DNA of 64,000 nucleotides from positions 10,381,501-10,445,500 of the forward strand of contig NZ_SAUN01000001.1 of the NCBI RefSeq assembly GCF_004011505.1, given 5' to 3'. A program made the translations under genes and the position numbers. The stretch's first letter is position 1. Every line of letters starts with the position of its first letter. A model generated the notes under the pieces. It was not told the DNA's origin. It saw only the letters and a list, made by a program, of their open reading frames with translations, and searched no databases. The DNA comes from Nonomuraea polychroma. Lineage in GTDB: Bacteria > Actinomycetota > Actinomycetes > Streptosporangiales > Streptosporangiaceae. Below are positions 27,073-31,234 of the stretch, one piece after another.

Positions 27073-27396
27073 TCAGGCGCTGCTTCGGGGACGTTCGGCC
27101 ACTTTCAGCTCGCATCCGCCGTCCGAGCACGAACGTCGTAGTCGCCCACGTGAGATCGTCTGTGCCAGCCCGATCGCCCAGCAGGTCGGGCACCCGCGAA
27201 ACGCGAGCACCCCCAGGGCGGCGAGCGCCAAGCTGACCGGCCAGATCACCGGCACGAGCACTACCGAGCCGACCAATGCCCCGAAACCCACCACACCGCG
27301 CACCAGATGCCGAGCCAGCGACGAACTGGCGAAGCTTCGGCCATCGGTCACCGAGACCTCCAGATCCGGGACTCGTGACCCGTTAGAAGGCGGCAT
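27073..27396 (-). CDS. small Cys-rich membrane protein downstream of ECF sigma
   Basis: 107-residue protein with a hydrophobic region near 38-72 (two helices: VVGFGALVGSVVLVPVIW and LALAALGVLAF), then a Cys motif RGCPTCW and a later CSDGGC. It resembles DUF2892/YgaP-like small membrane proteins only loosely. The ATG at 27396 overlaps the 3' end of the sigma gene by 14 bases, so the two are coupled. Its place after an ECF sigma gene suggests, without proof, a redox-sensitive partner or anti-sigma role. Confidence 0.55.
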   Translation of the reverse strand: MPPSNGSRVPDLEVSVTDGRSFASSSLARHLVRGVVGFGALVGSVVLVPVIWPVSLALAALGVLAFRGCPTCWAIGLAQTISRGRLRRSCSDGGCELKVAERPRSSA

Positions 27397-27943
27397 CGAG
27401 ATCACCTGGGGCCGGATCGGACAACGTACGCTGCACCGCCGCACGGGCACGATGCAACCGCGACTTCATCGCCGCGGTGCTGAGCCCCAGCGCGTCAGCG
27501 ACCATCCGGCCACTGAGCCCTTGCACATCCCGCATGATCAGCACCTGCCGCTGCTCGGCGGGCAGTGCCGCGATCGCCGCCGCCACCCGCGCGGCCTCCA
27601 GACGCTCGAACACCTCGTCCTCGGCTGACGGCCCTGCGGCCGCCTCAGGGAGGGGCGCCTGAGACCGCATCATGAGCCGTGCCCGCCGGATGCATTCATT
27701 GCGAATGATCCGGAACATCCACGAAACAAGCGCACCGGAAGCGCGCAATGTGCCGATCTTGCGATACAGGACGATGAGCGCCTCCTGCGCAGCGTCCTCG
27801 GCATCCTCGGGCGTGGCGCACAACGACCGCGCGAACCGCTGCACGTGCGGGTGCGCGCCCGCCACCAACGCCGCGATCGACTCGACGTCCCCGCGGCGCG
27901 CGGCGGCGACCAGCCGCTCGTCCGACCACGTCGTCTCAGCCAC
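27383..27943 (-). CDS. ECF-type RNA polymerase sigma factor
   Basis: 186-residue sigma-70 group 4 factor. Region 2 is FARSLCATPEDAEDAAQEALIVLYRKI, then SWMFRIIRNECIRRAR. Region 4 is LPAEQRQVLIMRDVQGLSGRMVADALGLSTAAMKSRLHRAR. The GTG at 27943 is preferred (GGAGGGG about 8 bases upstream); a GTG at 27949 is possible. It is followed by the overlapping Cys-rich membrane gene. Regulon and signal are unknown. Confidence 0.85.
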   Translation of the reverse strand: MAETTWSDERLVAAARRGDVESIAALVAGAHPHVQRFARSLCATPEDAEDAAQEALIVLYRKIGTLRASGALVSWMFRIIRNECIRRARLMMRSQAPLPEAAAGPSAEDEVFERLEAARVAAAIAALPAEQRQVLIMRDVQGLSGRMVADALGLSTAAMKSRLHRARAAVQRTLSDPAPGDLDAAF

Positions 27944-28028
27944 GTCCACGCCCCCTCCGGCGGAGCACGACGACACTACACGCGCAGATGAGCACGGCAG
28001 CGACGGCGACGGCGATACCTACGACCAC
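27936..28028 (-). CDS. possible 30-residue membrane micropeptide
   Basis: GTG at 28028 reads 30 codons: a very hydrophobic helix (VVGIAVAVAAVLICACSVVV) followed by RRRGRGRG, ending at a TGA that overlaps the sigma gene start. GGAGG lies 9 bases before the GTG. Membrane helix plus positive tail is a coherent design, but the frame is short and could be chance. A second tiny frame (ATG at 28158, 14 codons) with AAGGAG upstream lies just before it. Confidence 0.3.
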   Translation of the reverse strand: MVVGIAVAVAAVLICACSVVVLRRRGRGRG

Positions 28029-28266: not shown

Positions 28267-29033
28267 TTACCAGGGCACCGGGCCGTTCTCGCCGAAGAAC
28301 CCGCCGGTCGGTCCGTCCGCGCCGAGCGTGGCCAGGCGCACCACGACAGCGGCGCCCTGCCCGGTGGTGAGGTAGCCGGTGTGATTGTTGATGTCCGTGT
28401 CGACGAAGCCGGGATCGGCGGCGTTGACCAGGATGCCGCCCTTACGCAGCTCATTGGCGTACTGCACGGTCAGCGCGTTCAGCGCGGTCTTGGAGGGCGA
28501 GTACGCGGCCGACGTCGGCAAGCCCACCAGCGGGCCGTCCGGAATGCTGTTGATGGTCAGCGACCCGGCGGCGCTGCTGACGTTGACGATGCGTGGCGCC
28601 GGCGAGCGCCGCAGCAGCGGAAGCATGGCATTGGTCACCGCGATCACCCCGAAGACATTGATCTCGAACACCGCTCGAACCATGTCCAGGTCGACGGAGC
28701 TGGGGATTTGATCACGGGCGTCCTCGGGCGAGACCTGCCCGGAGCCGGTGATTCCGGCGTTGTTGACCAGCACGTCAAGGTGGCCGAAGCGCTCCTCGAC
28801 CCACCTCGCGGCCTCCTGGACGGTGGCCGGGTCGGTGACATCCAGGATGACCGCGTGCGCGTCGCCGCCCGCCGCGCGCACCGCCGCGGTGGCCTCCTCA
28901 CCGCGGCGCGGGTCTCTGGCGCCGATCAAACCGTCATGCCCAGCGCGGCGAGCTGCTCGGCGGTCGCGCGGCCGATCCCTTTGTTCGCCCCGGTGATCAT
29001 TGCCACCTTCTGGTGAGTGGTGTGCTCGTTCAT
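28267..29033 (-). pseudogene. SDR oxidoreductase with a single-base frameshift
   Basis: An otherwise complete SDR of about 255 codons. The N-terminus from the ATG at 29033 (MNEHTTHQKVAMITGANKGIG, continuing to ALGMTV) hits a TGA at the TTT run complementary to 28928-28930. The body (LIGARDPRRGEEATAA, NNAGITGSG, catalytic YSPSK, VNAADPGFVDTD) continues in another frame to the TAA at 28267. One missing T would restore it. It has its own AGGAG site and an ECF41-type promoter at 29072-29099. Either a real inactivating mutation or an assembly error. Confidence 0.8.
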
Positions 29034-29071
29034 GACCAAGCTCCTGTTCGAGAGAGTCTGTCTCCGCCCGG

Positions 29072-29099
29072 GACGAGACAGCCCTGGCCGCCTGTGACA
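29072..29099 (-). promoter_or_regulatory. ECF41-type promoter of the SDR gene
   Basis: On the minus strand TGTCACA (29099-29093), 17 bases, CGTC (29075-29072), 38 bases before the ATG. TGTCACA/CGTC is the promoter signature I recall for ECF41 sigma factors; an ECF41-type gene lies about 1.3 kb away at 30308-31234. The surrounding sequence (GGGACGAGACAGCCC) is mirrored at the divergent promoter. Confidence 0.65.
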
Positions 29100-29200
29100 T
29101 GGGAGGGAAGACAGGGGAGCCGGTCGCCGGTCACCTGATGACGGCGCTCTCCTTGCTCTCCACCTGCGGGGAGATCTCCTCAACCACCGCCTGCCGGCTC

Positions 29201-29228
29201 GATGCCCCCACGAAATCGTGGGGGCATC
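29201..29228. repeat. 13-bp perfect inverted repeat of unknown role
   Basis: GATGCCCCCACGA (29201-29213) and TCGTGGGGGCATC (29216-29228) form a perfect inverted repeat with a 2-base centre. It lies midway between the two divergent ECF41-type promoters. It could be an operator, an insulating hairpin or a mobile-element scar. Confidence 0.6.
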
Positions 29229-29270
29229 GACCAACAGCCGCGAACGATCTTTCCCAACTGTCTGGCCTTT

Positions 29271-29345
29271 TCATGTCACGGGTGCCGGTCATGTCACGGG
29301 CGGCGGGTCATGTCACGGGCGGCGGGTCATGTCACGGGTGGTCGG
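29271..29345 (+). repeat. four tandem 18-19 bp copies of an ECF41 -35-like unit
   Basis: Units start at 29271, 29289, 29308 and 29327, each TCATGTCACGGG followed by 6-7 variable bases. Each carries the TGTCAC(G) -35-like core; only the last is correctly spaced from a CGTC -10. An inverted copy of the core is in the SDR promoter. Confidence 0.85.
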
Positions 29346-29356
29346 GCTGTCTCGTC
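29330..29356 (+). promoter_or_regulatory. ECF41-type promoter of the epimerase-sigma operon
   Basis: TGTCACG (29330-29336), 16 bases, CGTC (29353-29356), with GGGCTGTCTCGTCCC matching the inverse of the SDR promoter region. It would make the sigma factor encoded in this operon autoregulatory. Confidence 0.65.
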
Positions 29357-29399
29357 CCAGGTAGAGCAGACAGACGCTCACGTCGGGAAGGTGATGGTC

Positions 29400-30311
29400 A
29401 TGCGGGTGTTCGTAGCAGGCGGGGCCGGGGCGTTGGGGCGGCGGCTGGTGCCGCAGCTCGTGGCGCGCGGCCACCAGGTGACGGCCACGACGAGGAGCGC
29501 GGCCAAGCTGGGCCTGCTGGAGCGGCTGGGCGCCGAGGCGGTCGTGATGGACGGGCTGGATGCGGCGTCGGTCGGTGAGGCGGTGGCCCAGGCCCGGCCG
29601 GAGGTGATCGTGCACGAGATGACCGCCATCTCCGGCAAGCCCGACATCAAACATTTCGACCGCTGGTTCGCCACCACCAACCGGCTGCGTACCGAGGGGA
29701 CGGACCACCTGCTGGCCGCCGCCGAAGCGGTCGGCGTACCCCATGTCGTCGCACAGAGCTACGCCGCTTGGAACGGCATCCGCCAGGGCGGATGGGTGAA
29801 GACCGAGGAGGACCCGCTGGACCCGACGAGCACGGGCAAGGCGGCGGAGGCGATCCGCCATCTTGAGGAGGTGGTCGTCAAGGCTGGTGGCGCGGTCCTG
29901 CGATACGGCGCGTTCTACGGGCCGGGCGCCACCGACGATCAGGTCGAGCTCGTGCGCAAGCGGCAGTACCCCGTCGTCGGGCACGGCGGCGGCTACAGCT
30001 CGTGGGTGCATCTCGACGACGCGGCGAGCGCCACCGTCCTGGCCGTGGAGCAGAAGGCGAGAGGCGTGTTCAACATCGTCGACGACGAGCCGGCCCCGGC
30101 CAACCAGTGGCTGCCCTACCTGGCAGCGTGCGCGGGGGCCAAGCCACCGATGCGGATCCCCACCTGGCTGGCCCGGCCGCTGGCCGGGAAGACGGCGGTG
30201 ACGATGATGACCGAGGGGCGCGGCTTCTCCAACGCCAAGGCCAAGCGGGAGCTCGGCTGGCAGCTGCGCTACCCCTCCTGGCGGCAGGGCTTCAAGGAGG
30301 AGCTGGCGTGA
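29400..30311 (+). CDS. NAD(P)-dependent epimerase/dehydratase-like protein
   Basis: 303-residue extended-SDR/NmrA-type protein. The Rossmann motif GGAGALGRRL is at residues 7-16, and a variable active-site region shows VAQSYAAWNG near 115-124 and SSWVHLDDAASATVL near 200-215. The canonical YxxxK is not obvious, so catalysis is uncertain. The ATG at 29400 has GGGAAGG 9 bases upstream. Its TGA overlaps the sigma factor's GTG (GTGA). NAD-epimerases are common partners of ECF41 sigma factors. Confidence 0.8.
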   Translation: MRVFVAGGAGALGRRLVPQLVARGHQVTATTRSAAKLGLLERLGAEAVVMDGLDAASVGEAVAQARPEVIVHEMTAISGKPDIKHFDRWFATTNRLRTEGTDHLLAAAEAVGVPHVVAQSYAAWNGIRQGGWVKTEEDPLDPTSTGKAAEAIRHLEEVVVKAGGAVLRYGAFYGPGATDDQVELVRKRQYPVVGHGGGYSSWVHLDDAASATVLAVEQKARGVFNIVDDEPAPANQWLPYLAACAGAKPPMRIPTWLARPLAGKTAVTMMTEGRGFSNAKAKRELGWQLRYPSWRQGFKEELA

Positions 30312-31234
30312 CCCGGGCCGAGGAGTTCCAGGAGCTGCGGCCGCTGCTGTTCTCGATCGCCTACCGGATCCTCGGCAGCGTGAGCGAGGCTGAGGACGCG
30401 GTCCAGGAGACCTGGCTGCGCTACGAGGCCACCCCGACCCAGCCCGCGTCGGTCAAAGCGTTCCTGTCAGCCGTGGTGTCCCGGATCGCGATTGACGTGC
30501 TGCGCTCGGCGCGCGTCCGGCGGGAGGAGTACGTCGGGGAGTGGTTCCCCGAGCCGCTGCTGGCCGACCCGTACCAGGACCCGCAGCGGTCGGCGGAGCT
30601 GGCCGACTCGATCTCGATGGCGGCCCTGTTGCTGCTGGAGCGGCTCAGCCCGCTCGAGCGGGCGGTCTTCGTGCTGCGGGAGGTGTTCGGGTTCGGCTTC
30701 GGTGAGGTCGCCTCGGCGGTGGGGCGGTCGGAGGCGGCGTGCCGCCAGCTCGTGGTGCGGGCGCGCCGCCACATGGACGCGGGACGCGCCCGGTTCGAGG
30801 CCGGCCGCCGGGAACGCGAGCAGCTCGCCGGGCGATTCTTCGATGCCTTCCGGGAGGGGGACGTGGACGGGCTGCGGAAGTTGCTGGCCGCGGACGTGCA
30901 GATGGTCGGCGACAGTGGCGGCAAGGCCCCGCTGTGGGGCAAGGGCGTCTTCGGCGCGGAGAACGTGGCCCGGACGCTGGCCGCGCTCGTCACGCCGTTC
31001 GTCCGGATCGGCGGCGTCGTGGAGCCGCACGAGGTGAACGGCCAGGCGGGCGCGATCTTCCGGGACCGGGACGGCAAGGTCGTCAACACCTTGGCGCTCG
31101 ACATCCTGGACGGGCAGATCCAGACGATCCGCGCGGTGATCAACCCCGACAAGCTCGGGCACCTGGGCCCGGTGGCGGACGCGTGGGCGGTCGTCCGCGA
31201 GGTGAACCAGGCCCGCCGCCGCCCCACAGACTGA
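30308..31234 (+). CDS. ECF41/SigJ-type sigma factor with C-terminal SnoaL-like domain
   Basis: 308-residue sigma factor: region 2 at about 1-75 (LRPLLFSIAYRILGSVSEAEDAVQETWLRY), region 4 near 105-165 (RLSPLERAVFVLREVFGFGFGEVASAV), and a fused NTF2/SnoaL-like domain to the end. The extension carries DSGGK at about 202-206 and NPDKL at 279-283, close to the DGGGK and NPDKL motifs I recall for ECF41, where the extension acts as a built-in regulator. The GTG at 30308 is coupled to the epimerase stop. It is likely to drive both TGTCAC/CGTC promoters nearby. Confidence 0.9.
   Translation: MTRAEEFQELRPLLFSIAYRILGSVSEAEDAVQETWLRYEATPTQPASVKAFLSAVVSRIAIDVLRSARVRREEYVGEWFPEPLLADPYQDPQRSAELADSISMAALLLLERLSPLERAVFVLREVFGFGFGEVASAVGRSEAACRQLVVRARRHMDAGRARFEAGRREREQLAGRFFDAFREGDVDGLRKLLAADVQMVGDSGGKAPLWGKGVFGAENVARTLAALVTPFVRIGGVVEPHEVNGQAGAIFRDRDGKVVNTLALDILDGQIQTIRAVINPDKLGHLGPVADAWAVVREVNQARRRPTD

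Follow-up and report, generated by a model that had tools for sequence, protein, structure and literature searches.

A tandem array of -35-like repeats upstream of a predicted ECF41-type sigma factor operon in Nonomuraea polychroma

ECF41 is a widespread group of sigma factors for which we know of no activating signal, and actinomycetes often carry several ECF41 paralogues whose -35 and -10 elements are much alike. In Nonomuraea polychroma, a predicted operon encoding a sigma factor of this kind is preceded by four tandem copies of a sequence containing the ECF41 -35 hexamer, which raises the question of whether the additional copies contribute to the control of the operon or are a by-product of repeat expansion. 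An initial annotation, made from the sequence without database searches, had described a self-controlled locus in which one sigma factor drives two divergent promoters and the additional -35-like copies may recruit or titrate it. We followed up this description in a 64-kb window (positions 10,381,501–10,445,500 of the 11.52-Mb single-contig genome), and give all feature coordinates as positions of that window.

The sigma factor gene and its neighbours

Profile matches identify the plus-strand gene at 30308–31234 as encoding an ECF41/SigJ-type sigma factor with a predicted fused SnoaL-like C-terminal domain. The product matches TIGR02957 (359.3 bits, cut-off 323.25) and PRK09636 (SigJ; 317.5 bits, cut-off 271) over nearly the full length, and contains the ECF-type sigma-70 regions 2 and 4 (PF04542, 46.1 bits; PF08281, 46.4 bits; both above cut-off). 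The fused C-terminal domain that had been read from the sequence is upheld by the two family profiles, although the SnoaL_2 Pfam match to the C-terminus stays at 22.5 bits, below its cut-off of 27. The motifs DSGGK and NPDKL are both present in the ORF, as claimed; their names are those of the initial annotation and are not spelled out in the accessible part of PMC3426412. The linker between sigma2 and sigma4 reads WFPEP, one substitution away from the ECF41 motif WLPEP (Wecke et al., PMC3426412). By sequence, the closest solved structure is that of Mycobacterium tuberculosis SigJ (PDB 5xe7; residues 4–283, E 5.3e-51), which likewise has a fused SnoaL-like C-terminal domain according to the accessible part of a review (PMC8999054).

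No anti-sigma factor was found among the four proteins scanned (the sigma factor, the epimerase, part of the dehydrogenase and the ECF sigma factor at 27386–27976, which is a second one in the window). The nearest named relatives of the 30308–31234 product are from Nonomuraea. At least 43 matches to it (E <= 0.001), probably including other ECF sigma factors, occur in its own genome, so that any assignment of one sigma factor to one promoter has to reckon with cross-talk.

The GTG start of the sigma factor gene overlaps by 4 nt the stop of the preceding plus-strand ORF (29400–30311), which encodes a predicted NAD-dependent epimerase/dehydratase (PF01370, 61.9 bits) and would be the first gene of the operon. 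In its accessible part, the study of the ECF41 sigma factors of Bacillus licheniformis and Rhodobacter sphaeroides (Wecke et al. 2012, PMC3426412) describes a fused C-terminal extension, a neighbouring gene for a carboxymuconolactone decarboxylase, oxidoreductase or epimerase preceded by TGTCACA-16+/-1-CGTC, and a small local regulon, with promoters often present on both sides when the genes are divergent; the promoter is described there as bipartite. The N. polychroma locus resembles these systems in its C-terminal extension, epimerase neighbour, promoter and divergent-side promoters. Unlike the systems treated in that part of the paper, which mentions neither extra -35 copies nor an accessory upstream GTCACA, it has a promoter-bearing short-chain dehydrogenase (SDR) gene as well and an array preceding the -35.

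The SDR gene lies on the minus strand at 28267–29033, and its frame is broken near 28930 by a one-base frameshift that had previously been overlooked. The minus-strand translation reads MNEHTTHQ...GMTV before it meets a stop, and the remainder of the SDR lies in a different frame. The part after the break matches adh_short with 117.7 bits, relatives match the SDR over nearly its full length (with identities of up to 90%, reached by L009 over residues 1–255), and the promoter before the broken gene is intact. Either the gene has become a pseudogene only recently, or it contains a sequencing error.

The two divergent promoters

The pattern TGTCAC-N15-19-CGTC has only two matches in the window, and both lie where the initial annotation had placed its pair of divergent promoters: TGTCACA-N17-CGTC on the minus strand at 29099–29072, before the SDR gene, and TGTCACG-N16-CGTC (base 7 = G) on the plus strand at 29330–29356, 70 bp before the ATG of the epimerase gene. 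The inverted flanking sequence is likewise present at both, with GGGACGAGACAGCCC perfectly inverted between 29070–29084 and 29344–29358.

The comparison set comprised 110 sigma factor loci from two search sets (30 and 80), 98 of them non-redundant. These 98 were judged on the 500 bp upstream of the epimerase gene, or else of a same-strand SDR gene, or else of the sigma factor gene; where another gene comes first in the operon the promoter lies further upstream, and such loci are covered by a scan of all promoter-like sites. The epimerase gene precedes the sigma factor gene in 54 of the 98 loci, and an ECF41-type promoter stands before the operon in 46 of these 54, at -63 to -73 from the epimerase start in 43 cases. 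Base 7 of the -35 in the 46 epimerase-type promoters is A in 43, G in two and T in one. All 12 divergent SDR genes have an ECF41-type promoter, accompanied by one on the operon side in 11, and the -10 context TCTCGTC recurs in 36 of the 46 epimerase-type promoters and in 12 of 12 SDR promoters. Because this context is shared, the inverted GGGACGAGACAGCCC represents the conserved spacer end and -10 of the clade rather than an extra operator.

The comparison supports a predicted ECF41-type promoter on each side of the locus, with position and -10 context conserved in relatives. The proposal that a single sigma factor drives both sides is in this respect partly supported, and we infer that the factor in question is the one encoded here rather than a paralogue.

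The starts of the SDR gene and the operon are 367 bp apart in the window and 145–249 bp apart in the other 11 divergent-SDR loci. Between the two promoters lies a perfect 15-bp inverted repeat (29199–29230), which occurs at a single place in the genome in a search at up to three mismatches. This palindromic stretch is missing from a related locus (L388, in genome G034) that shares the intergenic region and has a single TGTCACA -35 without an array. The epimerase and sigma factor matches at that locus fall in split frames, so that this copy, though related, is decaying and does not represent a pristine ancestor. A conserved intergenic gene at 29102–29270 was considered and rejected: of the five matches to this stretch viewed in other genomes, four are coding-like and the remaining one is the G034 locus.

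The tandem array in the window and in related loci

Repeat and motif scans place the array at 29271–29346 on the plus strand, with four copies of an 18–20-bp unit and a TRF score of 115, the highest in the window. The 12-nt core, TCATGTCACGGG, starts at 29271, 29289, 29308 and 29327, at spacings of 18, 19 and 19 bp. It occurs exactly four times in the window at up to one mismatch (mean 0.40 in 100 shuffles, none of which reached four), and a single exact copy is found elsewhere in the whole genome. The four tandem -35-like repeats of the initial annotation are present, with the correction that copy 4 is itself the -35 of the operon promoter, which leaves three extra copies 19, 38 and 56 bp upstream of it. 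No CGTC follows extra copies 1–3 at spacings of 14–19, and they were rejected as additional promoters. A quadruplex was also rejected: no motif with loops of 1–7 lies in the array, and the one found there with loops of up to 12 (29298–29326) is among 20 in the window and not distinctive.

The four copies share the same core and differ from one another solely in the 3' 6–8 nt, which gives three versions of the unit, of which copies 2 and 3 share one and copies 1 and 4 differ from it. The invariance of the core hints at constraint, though weakly, given the few events involved. The identity of copies 2 and 3, together with the frameshift in the adjacent SDR gene, which puts the local sequence quality in question, could be taken to suggest that the four copies result from misassembly of a short tandem repeat; however, three versions among four copies are not expected from simple assembly slippage and the genome is a single contig, and we consider such an artefact very improbable.

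Each of the four copies, the working one included, agrees with the -35 at six of its seven bases, which would suit the titration of the sigma factor by the extra copies that the initial annotation had put forward. The genome, however, contains 1,222 TGTCACR sites (618 + 604, against 358 + 328 for the reversed-pattern control) and 97 complete promoter-like matches (36 in the control), so that three more sites are unlikely to titrate the factor, and none of the three has a -10. On these counts we reject titration, to which we assign a close to negligible probability.

The initial annotation had also made its reading of the array dependent on similar repeats in relatives, and none of the other loci compared has them. 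Of the 98 non-redundant loci, that of the window is the only one in which the 500 bp before the operon head hold more than two TGTCAC; two loci, L010 and L076, have two TGTCAC each, 202 and 270 bp apart. When every promoter-like site in the 110 loci is considered (139 in total), an extra TGTCAC lies 14–26 bp upstream at two of them (0.36 expected), namely at 19 bp in the window and at 21 bp in L114, and L105 has an extra TGTCAC at 40 bp. Triple tandem arrays of TGTCAC as such are not uncommon in the genus, with 40 places spread over 14 of the 54 genomes; the reversed pattern gave 14 places. Among the 16 of 18 arrays inspected, the window's alone leads into a CGTC -10; none of the others inspected (15 of 17) does so, and the array was rejected as a general feature of the genus. 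On sequence comparison, the array is private to this locus among those examined.

Head-to-tail, near-identical units that are absent from the same place in relatives are what characterizes a minisatellite, for which copy number would be expected to vary within a species; species were searched here with one genome each. Among single explanations we favour neutral expansion, given that the array is private, resembles a minisatellite and stands in a promoter type that normally lacks an accessory site. We consider it probable, with some reservation, that the locus is an ordinary ECF41 circuit with positive feedback. In such a locus the fused SnoaL-like domain would restrain the sigma factor until a signal arrives, as the literature on the group has it, and the factor would then direct RNA polymerase to start transcription from two near-identical divergent promoters, one serving the SDR gene and the other the epimerase-sigma operon, which encodes the factor itself. 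The array would have arisen by a recent duplication of the -35 and half of the spacer, with a net gain of about 56 bp. The promoter would use only the last copy, the sole one with a correctly spaced CGTC, and the three upstream copies would be a minisatellite-like by-product, either neutral or slightly tuning. If neutral, the array would illustrate on a small scale how a repeat can arise within a promoter and leave it intact.

Accessory sites in other ECF41 promoter types

A scan of 341 family genomes for the doublet TGTCAC-N8-20-TGTCAC-N16-18-CGTC listed 139 places, distributed over 111 genomes; the reversed pattern yielded about 35. Among the 100 of these 139 listed places that were examined, an ECF41 profile match lies within 3 kb at 15, two of them weak, and ten of the 15 represent one ECF41 subclade whose members are 61–87% alike. 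The sigma factors of these ten loci (L224, L241, L245–L252) are 40–49% identical to that of the window, and the doublet adjoins the sigma factor gene at all ten.

To remove the bias of a doublet-led search, we used a protein-based search, in which sigma factors of the subclade were matched at E <= 1e-110 in 75 of 150 family genomes. Thirty of the best matches, one per genome, were kept as loci (L390–L419), of which 29, all but L414, could be anchored on a relaxed -35 and -10. A GTCA[CT] lies 16 bp (22 loci) or 17 bp (six loci) upstream of the -35 in 28 of the 29 anchored promoters, L413 being the exception, in loci that share descent and show fair conservation throughout the intergenic region (22 rows with spacing 16). 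No other GTCA[CT] was found at 8–90 bp in those 28 promoters. With strict TGTCAC at both sites the doublet is present in 5 of the 30 loci. Nine promoters have TGTTAC or CGTTAC as their -35, and eight of them retain the accessory GTCAC. This second subclade thus resembles the window in combining an ECF41-type sigma factor with an extra same-strand GTCACA-like site upstream, which lies between the divergent promoters where both are recognisable, and is unlike it in having one extra copy, at 16–17 bp.

A further promoter type with such a site occurs within the window's own sigma factor clade, at loci with relatives of the L090 decarboxylase (PF02627, 76.6 bits), which make up 22 of the 110 loci. 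Their 21 distinct upstream regions include 17 with a strict promoter, and GTCAC is found at 15–17 bp in 11 of these 17, with GATCACA there in two more; the GTCAC density of 1.39e-3 predicts about 0.1 for four offsets, although these loci, too, are related by descent. None of the 46 epimerase-type promoters (from 55 upstream regions) has GTCAC at 14–17 bp, and the window is alone among them in having one at 8–30 bp; nor does an accessory GTCAC occur within 60 bp of the 12 SDR promoters. No extra TGTCAC was found within 150 bp upstream of the 45 promoter-like sites of 80 genus paralogue loci, chosen among the matches listed, and GTCAC at 14–26 bp occurs at two of 44 distinct promoter-like sites in these loci. 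The zero in 80 understates doublets, since the listed loci left out comprise, besides one at a contig end and one fragment, three with adjoining doublets that had already been collected (G039:C42, G002:C1:12601013 and G030:C1:3012354).

Judged from sequence, an accessory GTCACA-like site upstream of the -35 is recurrent and conserved in two other ECF41 promoter types, and we found no description of it in the openly accessible literature searched.

Conservation in two promoter types gives some substance to the idea that an extra -35-like site could be functional. The extra copies could be accessory docking sites that region 4 or the holoenzyme binds weakly, raising local promoter occupancy, with the outcome of a steeper feedback or of compensation for a -35 whose seventh base is an off-consensus G. 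The GTCACA-like sites of the subclade and of the decarboxylase type are in line with docking, as are the identical core of all copies and the TGTCACG of the window in place of the TGTCACA that 43 of the 46 epimerase-type promoters share. Docking is nevertheless unlikely in our view, as the window's own promoter type lacks the site, spacings of 18–19 bp put the copies on different helix faces, and L023 has the same G without an array; to our knowledge, binding to a -35 alone has no precedent in the ECF41 group. We consider it quite unlikely that there is a distinct ECF41 form in which a second same-strand -35-like GTCACA, 15–19 bp upstream, aids cooperative binding by a SnoaL-gated sigma factor or holoenzyme, with two promoter types keeping one such site and the window having amplified it to three. 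Were the accessory GTCACA functional, the bipartite ECF41 promoter would be incomplete for some members of the group, the promoter type (none, one copy or array) could help explain how paralogues are kept separate, and the array of the window would amount to a natural dose experiment.

The TCATGTCACGGG units might instead form an operator array for a separate regulator, to which the near-constant spacing of the direct repeats would be suited, as it is to repeated protein binding in general. The accessory GGTCACA of the decarboxylase type is part of a longer shared block, and GTGATNCAGGTCACA is read in three loci, the decarboxylase-type L091 and L112 as well as L092; the sequence at these three loci, GTGATNCAGGTCACA / GTGATNCAGGTCAC, presumably resembles a Crp-type site. 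The unit of the array, however, lacks palindromic symmetry and carries in its core precisely the ECF41 -35 hexamer, and it is absent from every other examined locus of the same promoter type, all of which makes a separate operator distinctly improbable.

Neutral expansion of the -35 region is the reading we prefer. Counting against neutrality are the invariant core and the position of the accessory site elsewhere, at 15–17 bp and so near the 19-bp copy of the window; an extra single TGTCAC is also found at L114 (21 bp) and L105 (40 bp).

Accessory sites upstream of ECF41 promoters

A GTCACA-like accessory site on the same strand as the promoter is present at 28 of the 29 anchored loci in one ECF41 subclade (L390-L419), where it lies 16-17 bp upstream of the -35 of the divergent gene. 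Directly upstream of ECF41 promoters, a block that is either GAGACGCAGGTCACA-like or GTGATNCAGGTCACA is common to 13 loci (L066, L089-L093, L096, L104-L106, L109, L112 and L115), 11 of which are decarboxylase-type (loci in the sigma clade of the window that carry a gene related to the L090 decarboxylase). Three of these loci (L091, L092 and L112) fit the Crp-like motif GTG-N6-GTCAC.

TGTCAC repeats

Minisatellites built from TGTCAC units of ~16-22 bp (L146-L165) occur in 14 of the 54 genus genomes, and the 54 genomes together contain 40 such places, versus 14 for the reversed control pattern. Among the arrays inspected, the ECF41 -10 was absent from every TGTCAC minisatellite except that of the window (29271-29346). 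At L254, a locus in genome G326, two TGTCAC elements 18 bp apart precede TGTCTCGTC, the -10 context of the window's own clade; a search within 3 kb of this doublet found no ECF41-type gene.

Related copies and the intergenic palindrome

Two paralogues of the window locus, L385 (4.09 Mb) and L386 (4.86 Mb), lie in the same genome and are apparently decaying. The first listed of the pair has a frame-split sigma match (80% identical), and the second a TGTCACA...TGTCTCGTC promoter, downstream of which the epimerase match is truncated and the sigma match has 62% identity. In the related copy in genome G034 (L388), both promoters are present, and the frames are split in the epimerase and sigma matches alike. 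G034 lacks a ~60 bp stretch containing the perfect 15-bp inverted repeat that lies between the divergent promoters of the window (29199-29230), and a search of the whole genome from which the window comes returned no second occurrence of this repeat.

The divergent SDR gene

Translation of the SDR gene reveals a frame broken after codon 35 (28925-28940); its relatives, up to 90% identical, align end to end. The break may represent either a young pseudogene or a sequencing error. Some 0.3 kb past the SDR end, on the same (-) strand, lies a second ECF sigma gene (27386-27976), different from the ECF41 one.
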